Below, piece after piece: positions 5,672 through 47,559 of a stretch of 55,952 nt of DNA. This DNA comes from a virus: positions 1 to 55,952 of IMG/VR virus record IMGVR_UViG_3300013099_000023. The stretch is one strand, 5' to 3'. A model generated the notes under the pieces. That model worked only from the letters and a program-made list of their open reading frames with translations. It was not told the origin of the DNA and ran no database searches. A program made the translations under genes and the position numbers. Position 1 is the stretch's first letter. The number at the start of each line of letters is the position of its first letter.

Positions 5672-6056
5672 TATCTTCTAATACAGATTTTTCAATGACT
5701 TCAATCATCTCTACAACTTGACCAAAGATATCTACAGTGTCTTCATTTACAACTAAAGATATAGGACAGAATAACTGGTTCCCTTTTAAACTAGGGTACT
5801 TCTTTTCTCCAAAAAGTATCTTAGTTAAAGCGGCTATATTAAAAACACTACCATCCTCACTAACAACAGTATAAGAGCCATCCTCTTCTGAAAAAAATTC
5901 TTCATCTAAATCTAAGTATTTACCACTTTTATTTACAGTAATTTTGTATTTATCCGCTAACACTTTAAAGTGGTAATTTTTGGAAGGCATTAAAGCCATA
6001 GTGGGTATACCTACAATATCTATATCTTCTGTGTTACTTACTTTTTCTTTGCTCAT
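5664..6056 (-). CDS. Acidic hypothetical protein next to SSB
   Basis: A 130-residue acidic protein lying between the SSB gene and the zinc-ribbon gene. AGGAGAT lies four bases before the ATG. The sequence alternates hydrophobic strands and acidic turns (KYLDLDEEFFSEEDGSY) and ends with an acidic helix (EVIEKSVLEDNE). The acid-rich tail could mimic the SSB C-terminal tip, which the neighbouring SSB lacks, but this is only a suggestion. No recognised family. Confidence 0.68.
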   Translation of the reverse strand: MSKEKVSNTEDIDIVGIPTMALMPSKNYHFKVLADKYKITVNKSGKYLDLDEEFFSEEDGSYTVVSEDGSVFNIAALTKILFGEKKYPSLKGNQLFCPISLVVNEDTVDIFGQVVEMIEVIEKSVLEDNE

Positions 6057-6057
6057 C

Positions 6058-6378
6058 TCAATCTCCTATAATAATATAATTATCTATGGCCACATTAGTC
6101 CAATAAATAGTATTAGGGCCATTACAATACCTACACTTAGCAGGAAAGGAATGTTTTTCTAAATGCCCTATAATCTTTATGTACTTGCCCTCAGGCACCT
6201 CTTCTAGTTGTTCTGCCATTTCTCCCCAAACACTCACACCTATGTACTGATGAGCATCATTTGGTGTAGGAATAGCTAGGTTACACTTGAACATAATACC
6301 CCCATTATCATAATGGGTAACTTTCTTTTTTGTTATTCTACCTTGTAATTTTACAAAATTTTCACCTAATATACTCAT
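6058..6378 (-). CDS. ssb: Single-stranded DNA-binding protein (OB fold)
   Basis: A 106-residue OB-fold protein: NFVKLQGRITKKKVTHYDNG, MFKCNLAIPTPN, YIGVSVWGEMAEQLEEV and GKYIKIIGHLEKHSF follow the five-strand SSB pattern, including the typical V-W-G-E-A-E-like strand and the K-I-x-G-x-L strand. A CRYC pair lies near 82-85. It lacks the long flexible linker and the acidic C-terminal tip of bacterial SSB, ending IIIGD. It would coat single strands at the fork and in recombination. It overlaps primase by 17 bases; primase, helicase and SSB are adjacent. Confidence 0.85.
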   Translation of the reverse strand: MSILGENFVKLQGRITKKKVTHYDNGGIMFKCNLAIPTPNDAHQYIGVSVWGEMAEQLEEVPEGKYIKIIGHLEKHSFPAKCRYCNGPNTIYWTNVAIDNYIIIGD

Positions 6379-7414
6379 TCAAATACCCGTAAGCCTGGTT
6401 TAATGTTAATTCTGCTGGATCTTCTCCTAAAGCAGGGTCCATTCGTACCTCTACTACGTTCATATATCTACTAAGTATCTGTGTAGCTCCTTCTCGTAGT
6501 AGTCTGCCAAACTGATCCTTCTTTCCTTCCATACCTTCTATACCTGCGCTATCAGGGTCTAACATTAAAATAACACCCTTTATAGCATAGGCTCTTAACA
6601 AGTCTACCTGCCCTTGTGTAATATTTGAGCCCATTATAGCTATAGTATTATATAAACCGTACTCATGAAAACGCCAAACAGATTTAAAACCTTCTACTAC
6701 AATTAAAGGTAGCTCTGTACCAAATACTCTAGCTTTATTTAAGTTATATAAGGTCTTATCCTTTATGAAGCCTTCTGATAATATATACTTCCACTCTTTA
6801 GGAGCATTTTTTCTAATATCTCTTAGGCTGTAGGCAACTAATTTATTATTAACATCCCTTATAGGTACAATGTCACGTAGAATATTAAAATCATCAGTAA
6901 AACCTCCTGCTATATCAAACTTATTCAAAACTTCTTCTGTGAAGCCCTTATTAATAAAGTACTGAGACCTTAAGGGTTTATATAAAAGTAACTTTTCTTC
7001 TGACACATAATCAGGTATCTTATGTTTAGAATATTGCTCTATAAATTGATCTGATTCTTTTTTGAATTTATGTTTATCAATACTTTTTTTATAAGAACTT
7101 ATATCTCCTACTAATTCTTTTAAGTAGTTCAAGGCTCCCATAAAATCTAAACCCATAACTGCTCTAATAAGACTTATGATATCATTACCATGAATATCGT
7201 TACAACCGTGTGTAAAACATACCCAAGTTCTTTTATCTTTATTAAACCTAAAAGCACTCTTATTGTCTCCACCATGAATAATGCATGCAGCTCTTACTTC
7301 TTTACTTGATTCTTTTGTGGCTCTTATACCTAAAGAGTCTAATAGATAGTTTATATCTACCATATCCTTTAAAGCTGTGATATCATCTTTATTAAATAAG
7401 CTTGTCTGCTGCAT
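6362..7414 (-). CDS. dnaG: DnaG-type DNA primase
   Basis: A 350-residue primase, shorter than bacterial DnaG because it lacks the helicase-binding C-terminal domain. Residues 44-71 form the CHC2-type zinc site (CIIHGG...WVCFTHGC; Cys44, His47, Cys66, Cys71). The TOPRIM domain follows with LIVVEGFKSVWRF (catalytic Glu) near 228 and ILMLDPDSAG near 283 for the metal-binding DxD. It makes RNA primers for lagging-strand synthesis. GGAGG is placed eight bases before the ATG, inside the end of the helicase gene, which it overlaps by 23 bases; this coupling suggests balanced helicase and primase synthesis. Confidence 0.9.
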   Translation of the reverse strand: MQQTSLFNKDDITALKDMVDINYLLDSLGIRATKESSKEVRAACIIHGGDNKSAFRFNKDKRTWVCFTHGCNDIHGNDIISLIRAVMGLDFMGALNYLKELVGDISSYKKSIDKHKFKKESDQFIEQYSKHKIPDYVSEEKLLLYKPLRSQYFINKGFTEEVLNKFDIAGGFTDDFNILRDIVPIRDVNNKLVAYSLRDIRKNAPKEWKYILSEGFIKDKTLYNLNKARVFGTELPLIVVEGFKSVWRFHEYGLYNTIAIMGSNITQGQVDLLRAYAIKGVILMLDPDSAGIEGMEGKKDQFGRLLREGATQILSRYMNVVEVRMDPALGEDPAELTLNQAYGYLNEYIR

Positions 7415-9276: not shown

Positions 9277-9506
9277 TAAGACACCTCCTCATCTACACCT
9301 TTCTGTTCTTCTTTTACATAACAACCTGTACAAAAATAATCTGTTTCGTACTCTTTAGTTTCATTATTAAAAAAATTATACCAATCTGTCTTCATACCTA
9401 ACTGCTTACACTCTAAAGATAGATCACAATACTTAGAGTCGCCATGAAAAGTTCCATCTTTTAAAGGTATAAAGTCTTGACAACTTTTAATTAATATATC
9501 ACTCAC
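9276..9506 (-). CDS. Small Cys-containing hypothetical protein
   Basis: A 76-residue protein started by GTG 9506, with GAGG seven bases upstream. Cysteines at KSCQDF, KYCDLSLECKQ and FCTGCYVKEE could form one zinc site. The end is acidic. It overlaps the Vsr-like gene by eight bases and the coiled-coil gene by one. Function unknown. Confidence 0.62.
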   Translation of the reverse strand: MSDILIKSCQDFIPLKDGTFHGDSKYCDLSLECKQLGMKTDWYNFFNNETKEYETDYFCTGCYVKEEQKGVDEEVS

Positions 9507-9843
9507 TCATAGCCTCATATATTCTATTCAGAATTAATTGTTCAGTTATAGTATCTTTTTTATCATAAAAACGAACTAAAGTCAAGTTATTTTCTTCACA
9601 GTATTCTATTTTTAAATTATCCCTTCTTCTCTGAGCATAGAAATCCTCTATCGTATTATGAAAATGGCTTACATATTTGTAATGTTGTTCCCCATCACAC
9701 TCTACAAGTACTTGCAAAGAACGTATAAAAAAATCAAAAAATAACCTTGTATTTTTATAATTAATATAATACTCTTTTTCTATTTTATCAAAACTATACA
9801 AATTTTTTAGAGCTACGTAAGTAGCATCCGCTATTTTACTCAT
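9499..9843 (-). CDS. Vsr-like PD-(D/E)XK endonuclease, probable free-standing homing nuclease
   Basis: A 114-residue protein with the Vsr/DUF559-type nuclease pattern: EKEYYINY (Glu24), FFDFFI (Asp37), the core VLVECDGEQHY (Glu48, Asp50, His54), and QRRRDNLKIEYCEENN followed by LTLVRF, which fits the second helix and last strand of this fold. It is short, like very-short-patch-repair and homing members. Its neighbour is an HNH endonuclease and both follow the twice intein-split recA, so a homing role is more likely than mismatch repair. The start ATGAGTAA overlaps the HNH stop by eight bases. Confidence 0.78.
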   Translation of the reverse strand: MSKIADATYVALKNLYSFDKIEKEYYINYKNTRLFFDFFIRSLQVLVECDGEQHYKYVSHFHNTIEDFYAQRRRDNLKIEYCEENNLTLVRFYDKKDTITEQLILNRIYEAMSE

Positions 9844-10525
9844 TTATATAACCATATTTATTATGCATTAAAGTTTGGTACCACTCTGTATGCCAATCAC
9901 GATCTTTATTTGCTCTAGAGTTACATCCTATACAAAGTGTTATTAAATTACTTGGATGGCAATTCTTTTTATTATAATCTATATGATGGATACTTAAAGC
10001 CCTACTATATACAATTTTAAAACAATACGGATTTTGACACATATTAGAGTCTCTATCTTTTATTGCTTTTTTATAAATGTTGTCTGCCCATATCAAACAA
10101 TAAGGCTCTACAGATAACCCTCCCTGCCAATTCCAATGTTCTGACCCTTTAGGACTATAAATACTTCTACATTTCGGACACCCTAATCCTTTTTTAAAAT
10201 CATCCCATCGAATACTATGGTTATGCTTATTCTTACATATATAATCTAATTTTTCACTTGACCTTACATATTTTTTAGATAGTAAAATACAACCTTTACT
10301 TTCAAAAAAATTTTTAACATAATTGTATGTTGGAGGAGCATTCCCATAGCATCTTGGACAAGCGTGTCCTTGTTGAAAATCTCCCCACCTTATACAAAAT
10401 ATGTGTCCATTTTTACATAAACATTTTAATTTTTTAGTTGAGTTAATATATTTTTTTGAAAGTAAAATAAAGCCTTGTAACTTAAGTTGCTTTTTAATGA
10501 AGCTATATTTTAATTTTTTAGGCAT
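9836..10525 (-). CDS. HNH homing endonuclease with duplicated zinc-ribbon repeats
   Basis: The start is taken as ATG 10525 (a GTG lies just before). The 229-residue protein has two similar repeats of about 43 residues at 16-60 and 77-119, each with LLSKKY, a zinc-ribbon core and a CPRC or CPKC end; the matching IRWGDF and IRWDDF show duplication. Then comes the HWNWQGGLS signature (about 130-138) and an HNH domain: CQNPYC, LSIHHIDYNKKN (His180, His181), NLITLCIGCN. The repeats probably bind DNA and the HNH domain cuts. It overlaps the end of recA by eight bases, consistent with insertion of a mobile endonuclease gene directly behind its likely target. Confidence 0.9.
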   Translation of the reverse strand: MPKKLKYSFIKKQLKLQGFILLSKKYINSTKKLKCLCKNGHIFCIRWGDFQQGHACPRCYGNAPPTYNYVKNFFESKGCILLSKKYVRSSEKLDYICKNKHNHSIRWDDFKKGLGCPKCRSIYSPKGSEHWNWQGGLSVEPYCLIWADNIYKKAIKDRDSNMCQNPYCFKIVYSRALSIHHIDYNKKNCHPSNLITLCIGCNSRANKDRDWHTEWYQTLMHNKYGYINE

Positions 10526-13500
10526 CACCCTTTACCTTCTTATCCCTTGCTTTCTGGGCATCATAATACTCTTTTAATCCTACTATCTCAATAACCTCGC
10601 CTCTTATAACTAAAAATACATCGTAGTTTTCCTTAAAAAATTCACGTAGACCTTTATCACCTTGACCTATGTTTTTATCTGCATAACTATACCACGAACC
10701 TGACTTGTTAATTATTCCTAAATCTACCGCCAATTTTATAATCTCACCTTCCATATCATAACCTACACCATAAAATAAATCTACTTCTGCTGTAGTAAAA
10801 GGTGCAGCTAGTTTATTCTTTTTTATTTCTATTTTAGTTTTATGTCCAATCACAGTACCTTGTTCATTAGTAAGTCTATTACTCTTAGCACCAACACCGC
10901 TAACTCTAAGTCTACCAGTAGAATAAAATGGTAGTGCTTCTCCTGCAGGAGTAGTTTCTGGTGAGTTATGCACTACTATGCCATTAGTGGAACTACCTAC
11001 CATATAAGTAGCATTGTCTTCTACGGTAATGTCAAACTTCCTAAGATTACGTAACTTTCTATCTGATGCCTTTTTAATACCTTTAATTCTAACATAACTA
11101 GTTTTTATTACAGGGCTGTTAGTTAAATTAAAATCTTGGTACTTATTTCTATATTCTACAGGTAATTTATAAGACATACACTCAGGGATAAACCTACATA
11201 TTGTGGAGGCTATTTTATCCGTTGCTTCAGTTTTGAACCATATGCTCCCGTCTTTAATGTTGTAGTTACATAAAAAACCAAGGTCACAAAAAGTTTCCTT
11301 AATCTCTTCTAAAGTAGTTGTGTCTCTTTTAAACCTTTTTATAGAGAGATTATATCTCCTATGACCTGTAGATAAATCTAGATGTCCATCGTCCATTATC
11401 AATAAAGCTAAGCCAAGAGCGCTGAAGTTATTTAAAAAAAACATAGTGTTCCTTTGGCCAATTTCTTTTTTGATTTTTGCAAATTCATAAGTGTAATCAC
11501 TTTCATATCTGATTTTATTTAGGGCTAAATCCCTTCTCTTTAATTTCAAACAAGGAGCTAATTTTTCTACTTTCCATTCTAAATATTCTGGATTAATACT
11601 ATCTTGTAATTTTAAGCATCCTGTATTAATAGACCTAACGTGTATTGTACTATCACAAACTAGAACTGCAGACATAAAATCTCCAAAAGAACCATTCATA
11701 GTCGCGTAATATTTTGAAACTAATAAATCGGCCTGCTTAAGCGAACCTGCAGTTGACCATCCTCTTTGAGTAAGTATTTTATGATAACTTGTACAGGTCA
11801 AACTAAACTTTCCTCCTTTATTATCTATAGCATCTGTTTGTATAGTTAAAAAATCGTTTGTATTTTCCACTTTTCCATTATCGTGCCAAGCTACTATAGG
11901 TTTTAACTCGTAAACATCTTTATTATCATTATAACTCCAAACGTTAGCTTCTATTTTATTATCCACAATATAACCTATAGGTAGACTTTTTCCGTCCTCT
12001 AACACTACTTGTGTATCATAATGAAAACAACCAAACATAACGCCGATTTTCTGTCTAATTTGATTAATAAATATAATACAAATTTGATGTTCAGCAGCTA
12101 ATGGTACATAACGTAATAAAGTTGTACTCATTAACCTAGCAAGTAAAGCAATATTAACATCACCAATCTCTTTTTCAGCCTGCACTTTAGGTATAAGCGC
12201 CGTTACACTATCTACAACAAGCAAATCTACGTTACCAGACTTCATAATCATTTCTGCTGCATCTAAATTGTCTTCTCCAGTGTATAAGTCTATCACCTCT
12301 AATTTAGCCAAGTCTACTCCCATCGATTCAAATAGTACTGGGTCAGCACTTTTTTCTGCATCAATAAACACAGCTTTCATACCTCTTGACTGAGCTTCTG
12401 CTATTATTGACATAGCTAAGGTAGTATTATGGCTAATTAAACCATTAGACAAAAAACTATGTGTTTCTGGCATCACAACATCAAACACTGGTTCTGGGTC
12501 TAATTTTTTTATAGAAGTTACTTTGGTACAAGCATAAAAATTATTCAATAAATTCAAATGTTCTAGTATTAAATTAGCACTTGAACCTTTATTTATTTTA
12601 GAAAAACTATTTATTATAATACTTAATTTTTTACTTGTTAGGTTTTGATTTCTATTTATCAAGGGTTCGACAAGGTCATACTCTAAAGTTGTAGCCTCAG
12701 AATCATTAAGTAAAACTTTTACTAGATCGTTTTGCCTAGGAAACGCCCAACTAAAAGAGGCACAAGGTTTCTCGCATTGTAATAACGTACATTTATCTAT
12801 CTTATTTTTTAAAATAAATCCTATGTTTTTAATGAACTTATTAGTATCATCTGATGATATAGTTATATGATAATAATACTTATCATAACTCTTATTTAAT
12901 TTCTTGTAAGTCTTTGACTTTATACCAAACCTATCTAACAATAGTAACTGAATCTGTTTAAGTAACTCTCTTGAAGCGCTACTTGCAGTTATACGATTTT
13001 TTCGCTCATAGCAACCATCAAGACTAAAATATGCAGACAAAAATTTTGATATAATTCTGGAAGAACTTACCCTTATAACCATAGGTACACTCTTTTCTTT
13101 AGCTAAGCTTTTACTTAATCCATACTTAGTATAAAGTAATTCTCTTAGTACTTTTGAATGCACAGCATATGAAAATGTATTATTATCCTTACTATATTTC
13201 TTTATGTTATTAAAATTAAAAAGCTTATCAACAAGACTTGAAAATAAAGATAGCATTTCAGGATCTTCATTTGTGAATAAAAATTTATTGCTGTAACCTA
13301 AACTACCTTCAGCTAATAGCATACCTAAAAAAGTAGCCTCTCCCTCTGTAACCTTATCTTCGTAAACCATTTCTGAACGGGTTTTATTTACTAGTAAATA
13401 ATCAGAAGTAGTTATATCTTTTGATTTTTTCCAAGATATAAAACCAGTATTATTATCTATAACCCTTAATTTATGATTATCTGTACATTTTATAGACAAA

Positions 13501-13946
13501 CCTGCTACAGTTTTTATATAATTTACTGGTTTTTTATTGCTCCACACAAAATGTGAAGTATTTTCCTCTAAACCTTTTTCATTCCTCAGACAACTTTTTA
13601 TCTCTTTGTTTTTATTAGTCGTAAAGGGCTTTTCGCCTTCAAGTTTAAATAATTCTTCGATTGTAACTAAACCATGTTCACTGTTTACATATGTGTCTTT
13701 AGTAACACATTTACCTCCAGATGTTGGTCCGTATATCTCATAAATCCTACCTAAAGCCACACCACCCCGTCCAAGCGCTGCATCTAGACCTATACTTCTA
13801 GTAGAGATAGTATCTATTATGAGGGGCCTTTCTGACATAGGTTTAACTACATTGCCGTACTTCTTTTCTATAGCTTTTAAAGCTATATCCATTTTAGAAA
13901 CTTTTTTCTTACCTTCTGCTTTTTTTGTTGTTGCTTTTTTAACCAT
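10518..13946 (-). CDS. recA: RecA recombinase precursor with two inteins
   Basis: The 1142-residue precursor has three extein parts: 1-79, 508-639 and 995-1142, which join to a 359-residue RecA of normal length. Extein signatures are GPTSGGK/TTLA (Walker A), FIDAEKSADP, LLVVDSVTAL (Walker B), INQIRQKIGVMFG/SPETTPAG (L2 loop) and YDMEGEI. Intein 1 (80-507) sits between the Walker A Lys and Thr; intein 2 (640-994) sits after MFG in L2. Both start with Cys and end His-Asn, followed by Thr and Ser. Before splicing the protein should lack ATPase and DNA-pairing activity. RecA drives phage recombination and repair. AAAGGAGAGG precedes the ATG, which overlaps the previous stop by eight bases. Confidence 0.96.
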   Translation of the reverse strand: MVKKATTKKAEGKKKVSKMDIALKAIEKKYGNVVKPMSERPLIIDTISTRSIGLDAALGRGGVALGRIYEIYGPTSGGKCVTKDTYVNSEHGLVTIEELFKLEGEKPFTTNKNKEIKSCLRNEKGLEENTSHFVWSNKKPVNYIKTVAGLSIKCTDNHKLRVIDNNTGFISWKKSKDITTSDYLLVNKTRSEMVYEDKVTEGEATFLGMLLAEGSLGYSNKFLFTNEDPEMLSLFSSLVDKLFNFNNIKKYSKDNNTFSYAVHSKVLRELLYTKYGLSKSLAKEKSVPMVIRVSSSRIISKFLSAYFSLDGCYERKNRITASSASRELLKQIQLLLLDRFGIKSKTYKKLNKSYDKYYYHITISSDDTNKFIKNIGFILKNKIDKCTLLQCEKPCASFSWAFPRQNDLVKVLLNDSEATTLEYDLVEPLINRNQNLTSKKLSIIINSFSKINKGSSANLILEHLNLLNNFYACTKVTSIKKLDPEPVFDVVMPETHSFLSNGLISHNTTLAMSIIAEAQSRGMKAVFIDAEKSADPVLFESMGVDLAKLEVIDLYTGEDNLDAAEMIMKSGNVDLLVVDSVTALIPKVQAEKEIGDVNIALLARLMSTTLLRYVPLAAEHQICIIFINQIRQKIGVMFGCFHYDTQVVLEDGKSLPIGYIVDNKIEANVWSYNDNKDVYELKPIVAWHDNGKVENTNDFLTIQTDAIDNKGGKFSLTCTSYHKILTQRGWSTAGSLKQADLLVSKYYATMNGSFGDFMSAVLVCDSTIHVRSINTGCLKLQDSINPEYLEWKVEKLAPCLKLKRRDLALNKIRYESDYTYEFAKIKKEIGQRNTMFFLNNFSALGLALLIMDDGHLDLSTGHRRYNLSIKRFKRDTTTLEEIKETFCDLGFLCNYNIKDGSIWFKTEATDKIASTICRFIPECMSYKLPVEYRNKYQDFNLTNSPVIKTSYVRIKGIKKASDRKLRNLRKFDITVEDNATYMVGSSTNGIVVHNSPETTPAGEALPFYSTGRLRVSGVGAKSNRLTNEQGTVIGHKTKIEIKKNKLAAPFTTAEVDLFYGVGYDMEGEIIKLAVDLGIINKSGSWYSYADKNIGQGDKGLREFFKENYDVFLVIRGEVIEIVGLKEYYDAQKARDKKVKGDA
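10965..12029 (-). mobile_element. RecA intein 2 (L2 loop) with divergent LAGLIDADG domain
   Basis: This 355-residue intein occupies residues 640-994. It begins CFHYDTQVVLEDGKSLPIGY, has block B FSLTCTSYHKILTQRG, and ends FDITVEDNATYMVG...GIVVHN before Ser of SPETTPAG. The endonuclease-like centre has FMSAVLVCDSTIH and LGLALLIMDDGHLD, the latter a good second dodecapeptide, the former degenerate. From memory the site is equivalent to the Mycobacterium leprae RecA intein site. The sequence is unlike intein 1, so the two probably arrived separately. Confidence 0.92.
12426..13709 (-). mobile_element. RecA intein 1 (P-loop) with LAGLIDADG endonuclease
   Basis: This 428-residue intein occupies precursor residues 80-507. 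Block A begins CVTKDTYVNSEHGLVTIEEL, block B is GLSIKCTDNHKLRVI with the TxxH pair, and blocks F/G are VFDVVMPETHSFLSNG and LISHN. The next extein residue is Thr. Two dodecapeptide motifs, FLGMLLAEGSLG and FLSAYFSLDGCY, both keep the acidic residue (Glu, Asp), so the homing endonuclease may be active. Removal leaves an intact GPTSGGKTT P-loop. Confidence 0.94.
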
Positions 13947-15721: not shown

Positions 15722-15750
15722 AAAATAACATATAATGCAATAAATGTCAA
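15722..15750 (-). promoter_or_regulatory. Sigma70-type promoter for the replication operon
   Basis: On the minus strand a perfect TTGACA (15750-15745), a 17-base spacer and TATTTT (15727-15722) lie in the gap before dnaN. The start of transcription would fall near 15715, giving a leader of about 40 bases. It is the only site in the window with a full -35 and a good -10 at ideal spacing in an intergenic gap, and it separates virion genes from replication genes. Confidence 0.7.
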
Positions 15751-16010: not shown

Positions 16011-18611
16011 TTAACTATATGTAATTAAATTATCCTTAATACTATCATAAAATAAACTAATCTCCTGTTCTCGATGTGTTTGATTATATAACATTATTTC
16101 ATCTATAAGTCCAGGAAAAAATGTGTCTGGAGTTTTATTAGGTATATTTAAACTAAAATTTGATGTCCATCTTGCATACCCTTTAGTTACTTCTACATGA
16201 CTAACTCTTGATTGTACATCTGCTAACATAATGCCCATAGTAGCAGTTGTAGTATGTATATAAACATCTATGTACTGCTGCCCTTGAATGACCCCGTCTA
16301 TAAATATGTATATTGTAGTGTTTTTCCTAACAATTGCTATATGATGCCAGCCTAACCAACTAAATTTATATACGTTACAGTGTACAGAGTAGATTGTTAC
16401 ACCGGCGGCGTCATATAATACAAAATATACCCTATAATAACTGTTACTTCTATACGCATAAACTCGTAACCCATTATTTTGTCCGTCAGTATTATAAAGT
16501 ACATTTATGTTACCATTTGTTATTACATATACCCAAAATGTAATAGTAAAATCACTATCACCCAATTCAAAATCATCTAAATTACCATTTACTCTGACCC
16601 AATTATAATTATATCCGCCAGGAGCAGGTACACTTGAACCTCTCACAGCTTCCAAAGACCCGTTACCAAATTTACTTACACTGTCATTAATATATAAAGA
16701 AGAATCATTTTTAGCTGTAAAAGTATGTCTTCCTACTTGGTCATAGTACGTTGTACCATTTGAAAGTAGTACCATAACAGTCCCAGATACTACTACACCA
16801 GAAACTGTTACTATTGGGATGGGATCAACGTATGTTACACCATCAACTAAATCCGAATCATAAGCACCCCCTAGATAAGAAGAGCCTATAGCTGTACTGT
16901 TACTTCCTAAAAAATCAGAACTGTACACAGTAGCTTCTGCCTCTAATTCTCCGTCCAAATAAATAGATGTTTTAGACGCATCTACTAAGCAAGTCACTAG
17001 ATGGTAATTATCTACATCAATTCCTGAAATAGTAGTGTTAGCTTCTACTCTAAGATTTGTGGACGTTCTTATAGCTGAAAATAATTGCCCATTATCTATA
17101 CCTATTTCCCAACCTTTATTTTGCCCTCCCAAACAAAATATAGTACCTCTTGCCATTAAGGTATTAAATTTTACTAGAGCATAAAAAGACATTGTACCAG
17201 TATAAGTATTTTTTATATTATCGTCTATCAATAAATAACCATTAGTAAAATTTATTGCTTTTCCTAAGGGTGCATCTTCATGATCATCCCTGTATATATT
17301 GTAAGAAATACAGTTATGCTTTCTTATGGTAGCATCTTGTACAGGATCTACGTCTACCCCTGTTTCTGTCATATGCCAAACACCTAAACTGTTAGATCCC
17401 CAAAGAGCAGTTGTTGTATATGTTCCTGGAGGACTTACATTGTAGTAGTTAGAAGATTTGTTTCTATTATAATATAAGTATAACTCTAAATTATTTAAAG
17501 TCTCTATAAAAGGTATTTGCGCCCATATTATAGCTTCTTTATTAGCAATATCCCATTTAACTATTTCGCAGTACATACGGTTACCTAGGCAGTCTTCTAA
17601 CGACCAAAAAGTCCTAAACTCATCTAAAACTAGGTGATCAAAAATTACTGATGTGTCATAACTCGTTAACCCTGAAGAAGAATCTAAACTAATTAAAACT
17701 ACACTATTATACATATTATACGCAAATGAAGTTACGTCTATTGTCAACTGGAACTTATAACTACCGTACCATTCTGACGGCAGTTTATGTATAGCAGGTG
17801 TAATATTTCTACGTATTAAATCATTGTAGCTTACAACATCATTATCCGCTTTACAGATTAAGTAATGTTCATCTGATACCGGAGTATAAATAGTAAATTT
17901 TCCAGAAGTCTCATCAGACACAGTTGAATTCATAAAAGAATCATCAGAGTGCCTGTAAGCCTTAATTACTCTTGATACAGGTAAGTAGTCCTCTGTTATT
18001 GTACCCTCAAAATAATAGTCTGTTATAGTCTTAAAATAAGACGTTCCGTAATTATAACCGTAGCCTGTGGCAGCATTGTAAACATAGTCTTCATAAGGTA
18101 TAGTTATCTTGTTTTTATCTGTGTATATATGGGTGCGTGTACTTATAACTGTTTCTGTAGTTAAATTAAAACTTGTTAAATCAAAAAAATTAAAAGAACA
18201 ATTAATAAAAGATAGATTCATACCAATAGATCTTATATTATAAATATTATAAGAAGAATAACCACCAAAATAACATCTATTGTATATAAACTCTAATCCA
18301 TCAGGATTTGTATAATCATAAAATTGCAATGAACTATAGTAAGTGCTATTAGCCTGAATATATAACTTCTCCCACACTATTTTTGTAGTTTGTTTTGTAA
18401 CTGCTGGTCTAGAATATATTCTTATCTCATAAAAATAAACCTTATTACCTGATACGTTGTCTGTATTACCTACCAAATGTATATTTTTATCGCATATAAA
18501 AAACCCATAATTACCTGGTTCAAGTAGTAACATATCACCATCTTCGGCATTATCATATGCTAAAGTTAAAGTTTCAAATTCTAATCCTGGCCCTACTCTA
18601 AGTACTCGCAT
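16011..18611 (-). CDS. Tail-fibre adhesin with beta-helix, DUF2341 and two LamG domains
   Basis: An 866-residue protein. Residues 1 to about 210 look like a right-handed beta-helix (TLAYDNAEDGDMLLLEPGNY, then YFYEIRIYSR strands), the pectin-lyase-like start seen in many fibres. About 274-390 matches DUF2341 (EIVKWDIANKEAIIWAQIP, LELYLYYNRN). LamG-like jelly rolls lie at about 450-600 (YHLVTCLVDASKTSIYLDGE) and 670-855 (GWHHIAIVRKNTTIYIFIDG), each ending in the usual IDEI or VEVTKG strand. These bind glycans, so it is a likely receptor-binding protein. No enzyme motif is visible. The ribosome binding site is weak (CGGGTAAA). It ends the fibre cluster. Confidence 0.82.
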   Translation of the reverse strand: MRVLRVGPGLEFETLTLAYDNAEDGDMLLLEPGNYGFFICDKNIHLVGNTDNVSGNKVYFYEIRIYSRPAVTKQTTKIVWEKLYIQANSTYYSSLQFYDYTNPDGLEFIYNRCYFGGYSSYNIYNIRSIGMNLSFINCSFNFFDLTSFNLTTETVISTRTHIYTDKNKITIPYEDYVYNAATGYGYNYGTSYFKTITDYYFEGTITEDYLPVSRVIKAYRHSDDSFMNSTVSDETSGKFTIYTPVSDEHYLICKADNDVVSYNDLIRRNITPAIHKLPSEWYGSYKFQLTIDVTSFAYNMYNSVVLISLDSSSGLTSYDTSVIFDHLVLDEFRTFWSLEDCLGNRMYCEIVKWDIANKEAIIWAQIPFIETLNNLELYLYYNRNKSSNYYNVSPPGTYTTTALWGSNSLGVWHMTETGVDVDPVQDATIRKHNCISYNIYRDDHEDAPLGKAINFTNGYLLIDDNIKNTYTGTMSFYALVKFNTLMARGTIFCLGGQNKGWEIGIDNGQLFSAIRTSTNLRVEANTTISGIDVDNYHLVTCLVDASKTSIYLDGELEAEATVYSSDFLGSNSTAIGSSYLGGAYDSDLVDGVTYVDPIPIVTVSGVVVSGTVMVLLSNGTTYYDQVGRHTFTAKNDSSLYINDSVSKFGNGSLEAVRGSSVPAPGGYNYNWVRVNGNLDDFELGDSDFTITFWVYVITNGNINVLYNTDGQNNGLRVYAYRSNSYYRVYFVLYDAAGVTIYSVHCNVYKFSWLGWHHIAIVRKNTTIYIFIDGVIQGQQYIDVYIHTTTATMGIMLADVQSRVSHVEVTKGYARWTSNFSLNIPNKTPDTFFPGLIDEIMLYNQTHREQEISLFYDSIKDNLITYS

Positions 18612-46320: not shown

Positions 46321-47559
46321 CTATACCTGGTCTATAACAGCTGTAATTTTAACTTCTGTAGCCTTAGTACCAGATTTATATATAGTACCTGCCTCTCCTA
46401 AAGAATTAGTATTTACAGGATTGCCTCCTATAATATCGCCAGTAGTAGTTTCATCATGTGAAAAATAAACTAGCCTACCAGAAATTGGCTGCCAGAATTG
46501 GTCTTTTACTCTTGCTAATATACCAGTAGTAGCAGAACCATTGGCTGAAATTATACTAGGGTCTGCTAGCAAAGAAATAGAAGTCACTATTTTTGCCTGA
46601 GTAGCAACGTTATATTGAGCATAACTATAAGATTCTGTTTGTCCAAAATAATTAGCTTTACGTTGTAACTTATAGATATTATCACCTTCTATAGCTAAAT
46701 CATACACAACTATTACCTTGTTAGTAGTAATCTCTACGTTATCTAGTAACATTGAGCCATAATTATGTAAATTTATACCTGTGCCAGAAACGTCTATAAA
46801 TAACATATTTGTAGCTTTTACATAACAAAGCATATCTGTTGCTCCATACTTATCTAAAGCATATATTTTATAGAATGTGCAGGCTGTAATATCCTTATAC
46901 TCAGCTGCCTCATACCTTGTTATATAACTACCTGTATAAGCATTTATTTTATATAAAGCACCAGTATTAGCTAAAGTTCCACTATAATTATTAAATAACC
47001 ATATATTTGTATAAAAAACTACGTCAGTACCATAAGCGTATTCCTCTTCTACAGTGTCGGCTAAAACTATAACTCCAGTTTCCCACGCTTGTACGTTCAA
47101 AGTTTCTGATACACCAAGACTATTAGGCCCTATAGTAATAGTCATACCACTACTTAATTTATCCCAATAATCTTGTACAGGTATTCTATCTGTACCTATA
47201 GGTATTGTACCGGAAGTAGTTGTATGATAATGTTCTAAAGTAAAAGCATCAGCATTATATTTATGTCCTACGCTTTCGTTTAAATTTATAATTTGTTCTT
47301 GTATACATACATAATTTTGTATTTTCCAACGTTTAATAGCTAAAGAATTTGTAGCTGTGGTCTCCAACGTCCAAAAATTAGCGCCATCATACTCAAGAGA
47401 CGTGACTGGGTTATCTAGTAACGTGTCTAAAGGACTAGAAAAGGAAGTATTTCCATCAGAAGTTCTTTGGTAAAGTACATTAGTCTCATCATCAAACATG
47501 TAAAAGTAACCATCTACTAAAGTAAAATGATCCTTTTTAAAATTTATATTAGTTGACAT
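46321..47559 (-). CDS. Tail protein, paralogue C (shortest form)
   Basis: The 412-residue basic form of the three-gene family. It has an N-terminal part with LVDGYFYMFDDETNVLYQR and LEYDGANFWTLETTATNS, AIKRWKIQNYVCIQ, then a middle beta part (IPIGTDRIPVQDYW, IWLFNNYSGTL, GALYKINAYTGSYITRY), and the Ig-like Big_1 domain at the end (ARVKDQFWQPISGRLVYFSH). The beta repeats fit a propeller platform. AAAGAGAAAAA precedes the ATG. The tandem order C, B, A along the transcript suggests duplication then growth. Confidence 0.75.
   Translation of the reverse strand: MSTNINFKKDHFTLVDGYFYMFDDETNVLYQRTSDGNTSFSSPLDTLLDNPVTSLEYDGANFWTLETTATNSLAIKRWKIQNYVCIQEQIINLNESVGHKYNADAFTLEHYHTTTSGTIPIGTDRIPVQDYWDKLSSGMTITIGPNSLGVSETLNVQAWETGVIVLADTVEEEYAYGTDVVFYTNIWLFNNYSGTLANTGALYKINAYTGSYITRYEAAEYKDITACTFYKIYALDKYGATDMLCYVKATNMLFIDVSGTGINLHNYGSMLLDNVEITTNKVIVVYDLAIEGDNIYKLQRKANYFGQTESYSYAQYNVATQAKIVTSISLLADPSIISANGSATTGILARVKDQFWQPISGRLVYFSHDETTTGDIIGGNPVNTNSLGEAGTIYKSGTKATEVKITAVIDQV

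Follow-up and report, generated by a model that had tools for sequence, protein, structure and literature searches.

What is the insert that interrupts the L2 DNA-binding loop of a viral RecA also split at its Walker A loop, and how did two inserts come to share one gene? The locus lies in a 55,952-nucleotide stretch of viral DNA, positions 1 to 55,952 of IMG/VR record IMGVR_UViG_3300013099_000023, which we refer to as the window. Our analysis makes it very likely that the L2 insert is a class-1-type intein of full length, in which a probably active LAGLIDADG endonuclease is nested, and that it is fixed in a phage recA together with a remotely related Walker A intein. The element is ordinary in kind: its site is known, the two-intein combination is uncommon, and the comparison with empty sites is unusually clean.

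The recA precursor gene (10518–13946, minus strand, as are all of its parts) is an open reading frame of 1142 amino acids, made up of a 359-amino-acid spliced RecA and two inteins. The N-extein (13710–13946) runs up to the Walker A sequence GPTSGGK and is collinear with the intein-free recA of a sister phage, the IMG/VR contig L092. Intein 1 (12426–13709; 428 amino acids) is inserted at GPTSGGK^TT, between the Walker A Lys (K72 in E. coli) and Thr. The middle extein (12030–12425; 396 bp) extends from that Thr to the MFG of L2 and is 83.7% identical to L092 in nucleotides along its whole length. It is followed by intein 2 (10965–12029; 355 amino acids) and by the C-extein (10518–10964), which begins at SPETTPAG, continues to the end of RecA, and is 81% identical to L092 in nucleotides. 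With both inteins removed in silico, the protein matches PF00154 (8.5e-79), the RecA_C domain PF21096 (1.8e-17), and single-chain RecA entries in the PDB (~1e-78). It thus passes as a bacterial-type RecA recombinase, having a RecA core with Walker A, L2, and a C-terminal domain. The source virus infects bacteria, and both inteins sit in a gene for DNA repair. Loop L2 comprises about residues 195–209 of E. coli RecA. The spliced protein aligns with the E. coli protein without gaps through KIGVMFG(S/N)PETT, which places the insertion at MFG^SPETT, between G211 and S212 of spliced RecA (G204/N205 in E. coli). An earlier note, made from the sequence alone, had placed the insert after MFG in L2 and described both inteins as occupying functional motifs; both statements hold, the motifs being the Walker A loop and L2.

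The boundaries that had been proposed for intein 2 are exact. The element begins with C1 (CFHYDT) and ends with IVVHN, immediately upstream of S+1 in SPETT. Models for the N-terminal (TIGR01445; 5.7e-9) and C-terminal (TIGR01443; 4.6e-5) intein regions both match. Block B, TSYH (11781–11792), contains Thr80 and His83, and the C-terminal splicing block FDITVEDNATYMVGSSTNGIVVHN (10965–11036), recognized by TIGR01443, contains His354 and Asn355. We aligned intein 2 with 17 relatives and assessed conservation across the resulting 18 L2-loop inteins, the nearest of which are only ~53% identical to intein 2. His83 and Asn355 are invariant in this alignment, and C1 and His354 are nearly so. Intein 2 therefore has the full set of class 1 splicing residues (C1, T80/H83, H354, N355, and S+1). 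Between the splicing blocks, residues ~113–300 (11130–11693) form a LAGLIDADG homing-endonuclease domain. The Pfam model LAGLIDADG_2 gives only a sub-threshold match to intein 2. The assignment draws instead on the two catalytic acidic positions, D126 (AVLVCDSTI) and D213/D214 (LLIMDDGHL), all of which are invariant in the 18 sequences, and on the endonuclease fold. An AlphaFold model that drew on sequences from the window and the collection reaches a mean pLDDT of 93.4 and consists of a Hint domain and an I-SceI-like LAGLIDADG domain. In Foldseek searches, this model superimposed on the splicing domain of the Mycobacterium tuberculosis RecA intein (2in0/2imz) with an rmsd of 1.8–2.3 Å over 105–110 columns, and it also matched the homing endonucleases I-SceI and I-WcaI.

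Intein 1 is bounded by CVTKDT and LISHN, the latter followed by T+1. It contains PF14890 (3.2e-17) and the LAGLIDADG_3 endonuclease domain PF14528 (2.6e-18), and its AlphaFold model has a pLDDT of 88. As had been noted, the two inteins differ in sequence and size (355 versus 428 amino acids), and they also carry endonucleases of different subfamilies, LAGLIDADG_3 in intein 1 and a LAGLIDADG_2-like domain in intein 2. The earlier description of the inteins as unrelated is right only in that neither is a close paralogue of the other: a BLASTP comparison yields E=0.15 with short matches only. Their profiles do align (hhalign probability 96.8%, E 2.6e-10), so that "unrelated" should become "remotely related". 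The two are distant homologues built on a common Hint and LAGLIDADG plan.

Comparison with L092 establishes that the L2 insert is an insertion. Synteny between L092 and the window extends from window position 15750 to 5862, with a nucleotide identity of about 81–84%, and the RecA protein of L092 is 91–92% identical to that of the window. BLASTN alignment of the two breaks at 13710/12428 and at 12031/10964, such that both inteins are missing at codon boundaries. Because L092 lacks both inserts so precisely, intein 2 is a true insertion and not an odd RecA, and both inteins are mobile passengers. Recombinase genes of other sibling phages, at 58–69% identity, are likewise intein-free reading frames of ~350–370 amino acids. 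The GC3 values of the two inteins (0.19, 0.24) resemble those of phage genes (0.18–0.24), which means that the inteins either did not arrive very recently or had donors of like composition. We had also considered co-conversion from a bacterial recA, an idea prompted by the different L2 sequence, AYGDP, of siblings L069, L081, and L098, from which it seemed that MFGSPETT had arrived together with the intein. This candidate was dropped because L092 carries MFGSPETT although it has no intein there, and because sequence identity close to the site does not stand out.

The relatives of the two inteins are distributed differently. Intein 2 is 49–53% identical to same-site inteins in L016, L017, and L002 and in the Campylobacterota loci L008–L010, the RecAs of which are only 38–45% identical to that of the window. 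Its best relative, in L016 (53%), resides in a gene whose Walker A site is empty. Direct peptide patterns retrieved no close viral relatives of intein 1; an alignment query found phage recA inteins in L069 (51%) and L081 (46%), with which intein 1 groups and both of which have an empty L2. The intein and extein trees disagree. Since the nearest relatives differ, each occurring at its own site, the inteins were gained separately as the earlier note had supposed, and the sequences are most simply explained if each intein came in horizontally and on its own. The L2-loop family to which intein 2 belongs is common to viruses and Campylobacterota chromosomes, a distribution consistent with phages taking inteins into cellular recA. 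In a class sample of 397 Campylobacterota genomes, L2 inteins were rare, with a single close match, which is the centre genome itself, and a single weak partial match. Across this superfamily, L2 inteins are found in three registers: MFG^SPETT; MFGDPT^CTPGG, in L012, L020, and L021 and further copies (L021–L031); and KIGV^SFG, in L034 and L037. A single intein superfamily thus uses shifted sites within one loop. The Sulfurovum L2 intein in L011 (2905–3972) contains an in-frame TAA, which is either a sequencing error or the mark of a broken copy.

These data bear on other accounts of how the gene arose. Both inteins might be ancestral to the phage lineage and have been deleted precisely from sister phages. 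Clean loss could occur through recombination with intein-free alleles, and the phage-like GC3 of the inteins bears no mark of recent arrival. We regard this history as improbable, given that L092 and the siblings at 58–69% identity all lack both inteins and that, among distant recAs, the inteins are more alike than the genes that host them; with both L092 sites exactly empty, gain by homing is the most parsimonious reading. Copying of one intein to the other site within the same recA would explain why two Hint and LAGLIDADG elements that align at the profile level occupy one gene. It is nevertheless highly improbable in view of the poor BLASTP alignment, the different endonuclease subfamilies, and the occurrence, for each intein, of same-site relatives of 46–53% identity in recAs from which the other intein is missing. 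A recent duplication in particular is refuted by BLASTP and by the intein tree. The window is a virus record from an assembly collection, and an intein from another molecule could in principle have been joined into recA during assembly. The chance of such an artefact is negligible: the inserts are in-frame and codon-exact at two conserved intein sites, their flanks are collinear with L092, and their GC3 is like that of neighbouring genes.

A different question is whether intein 2 is a decayed passenger that splices but carries a dead endonuclease. Two features count against our preferred reading here. Block F has lost its His (DNATYM for DNHNYM), and a Cys stands in place of the usual Gly just before D126 in the first endonuclease motif. 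In addition, part of the endonuclease is visibly missing from a related Walker A intein, that of L081. Set against these points are the invariance of both catalytic Asp positions and a domain that is full length with a fold predicted at high confidence. Both substituted positions also vary among the related inteins of the 18-sequence alignment; we therefore set aside the notion that loss of the block-F His marks a dead intein. A decayed endonuclease is unlikely on balance, though it deserves more weight than the other alternatives. The L081 intein itself (6001–7116), from a sibling phage, is cut to 372 amino acids and represents a homing endonuclease in decay.

We next consider how intein 2 relates to known RecA inteins. 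It had been asked whether its site equals that of the Mycobacterium leprae RecA intein, which we take to lie at this position in L2. The M. leprae sequence served as a lead only in our tree; it groups (97/97) with a Chloroflexi recA intein (L014), inserted at MFG^SPETTTGG. Intein 2 shares its L2 site with the inteins of L014, L033, and L036, which supports the equivalence. Intein 2 is also similar to the M. leprae element in size, in its LAGLIDADG domain, and in its +1 Ser. In sequence, by contrast, it falls outside the M. leprae-type clade. It is 28–31% identical to the inteins of L014, L033, and L036 (~25–31% for the clade as a whole), lies in a separate deep clade defined by a 100/100 split, and clusters with viral and Campylobacterota recA inteins. 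The M. tuberculosis RecA intein shares with intein 2 a RecA host and class 1 chemistry and is among its best solved splicing-domain matches, but its insertion site is a different one, directly following VKNK in the C-terminal portion of the core of RecA. That site is vacant here, the extein sequence IKKNKLAAPF being uninterrupted. P-loop inteins are known in RecA/RadA, and splicing of M. leprae RecA has been reported to be host-dependent (PMC5874633). Intein 1 shares its Walker A site and its intein family with RecA inteins (~31–35%) of Escherichia phages PhiR41_1 and Cyrano and of Bacillus phage fHSPT3; of these recA genes, the two that we read, from PhiR41_1 and fHSPT3, have no L2 intein.

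The earlier note had called two inteins in one phage RecA unusual. The arrangement is indeed uncommon, but it is not unique. RecA/UvsX genes of the jumbo phages Erwinia phage pEa_SNUABM_17 and Yersinia phage fHe-Yen9-02 carry an L2 intein at the same site (39% and 36% identical to intein 2, respectively) together with a second intein located downstream, at ALKFY^SDVRV, rather than in Walker A. These jumbo phage genes (L005, 3083–6658; L006, 3125–6628) are annotated simply as UvsX-like recombinases. A viral RecA in L036 (4513–7053) contains inteins at GPES^CGKTT and MFG^SPETT, the first of which lies three residues ahead of the K^T position that is usually occupied. The chromosomal recA of a Campylobacterales MAG (L010, 2087–5446), followed by an enolase gene, is interrupted at GPESSGK^TT and MGYG^SPETT, the same two sites as in the phage gene. 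This is a cellular gene, and its inteins are only ~30% (Walker A) and ~50% (L2) identical to those of the phage, from which we infer that the pair was probably assembled independently. The L2 intein of L010 ends in VSN, not VHN, and thus lacks the penultimate His. Outside RecA, inteins interrupt both the P-loop and a DNA-binding loop of DnaB in Mycobacterium smegmatis (PMC6195587), and a two-intein TerL has been described from a crAss-like phage (PMC7886860). The DnaB pair resembles the present one in residing in one ATPase and in differing in sequence and site; it differs in its host protein and in that DnaBi1 is a class 3 intein without an endonuclease, whereas both inteins here have endonuclease domains. 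Our literature search, which reached few subscription papers, found no published two-intein RecA and no paper naming PI-MleI.

Under the preferred reading, in which both inteins were acquired by homing, the Walker A intein may have been present before the L2 intein or gained after it. Each would excise itself after translation through attack by C1, transfer to S+1 or T+1, and cyclization of Asn. RecA would become able to bind ATP and DNA only once excision, in either order, had restored the P-loop and L2. Because each intein must excise itself, active RecA would require two independent splicing events, and the unspliced precursor is presumably inactive. Each endonuclease is predicted to cut intein-free recA at its own site, after which double-strand-break repair would copy the intein in. 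In the empty allele, 396 bp separate the two sites, and the repair of one break could bring in the second intein as well. One could go further and envision a double lock on phage recombination, in which one intein blocks ATP binding and the other DNA binding, single-stranded DNA triggers splicing of the L2 intein, and the closely spaced inteins co-convert each other and move jointly among recA alleles of phages and bacteria. We consider this extended scenario a long shot.

The 3' end of recA carries further nuclease genes. A free-standing HNH endonuclease gene (9836–10528, minus strand; phrog_559 and phrog_144) overlaps the end of recA and constitutes a third insertion relative to L092, where it is absent. 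In L094, this junction holds a different HNH reading frame of 365 amino acids, and the recA 3' boundary thus looks like a place where insertions land repeatedly. The window and its sister phage (~82% identical in nucleotides) therefore present a clean natural experiment, one having a two-intein recA with an HNH gene and the other lacking all three insertions; with this pair, one can test directly how the insertions were gained, how targets are chosen, and whether homing events are coupled. The adjacent 114-amino-acid reading frame (9499–9843, minus strand) encodes a small homing-endonuclease-like nuclease (phrog_559 and phrog_9084). Sister phages L092 and L094 keep it beside recA, which suggests a conserved role rather than that of a passing selfish gene. 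Elsewhere in the window, reading frames 46321–47559 and 16011–18611 contain Big_1/invasin-like and LamG-like domains and probably encode virion surface proteins.
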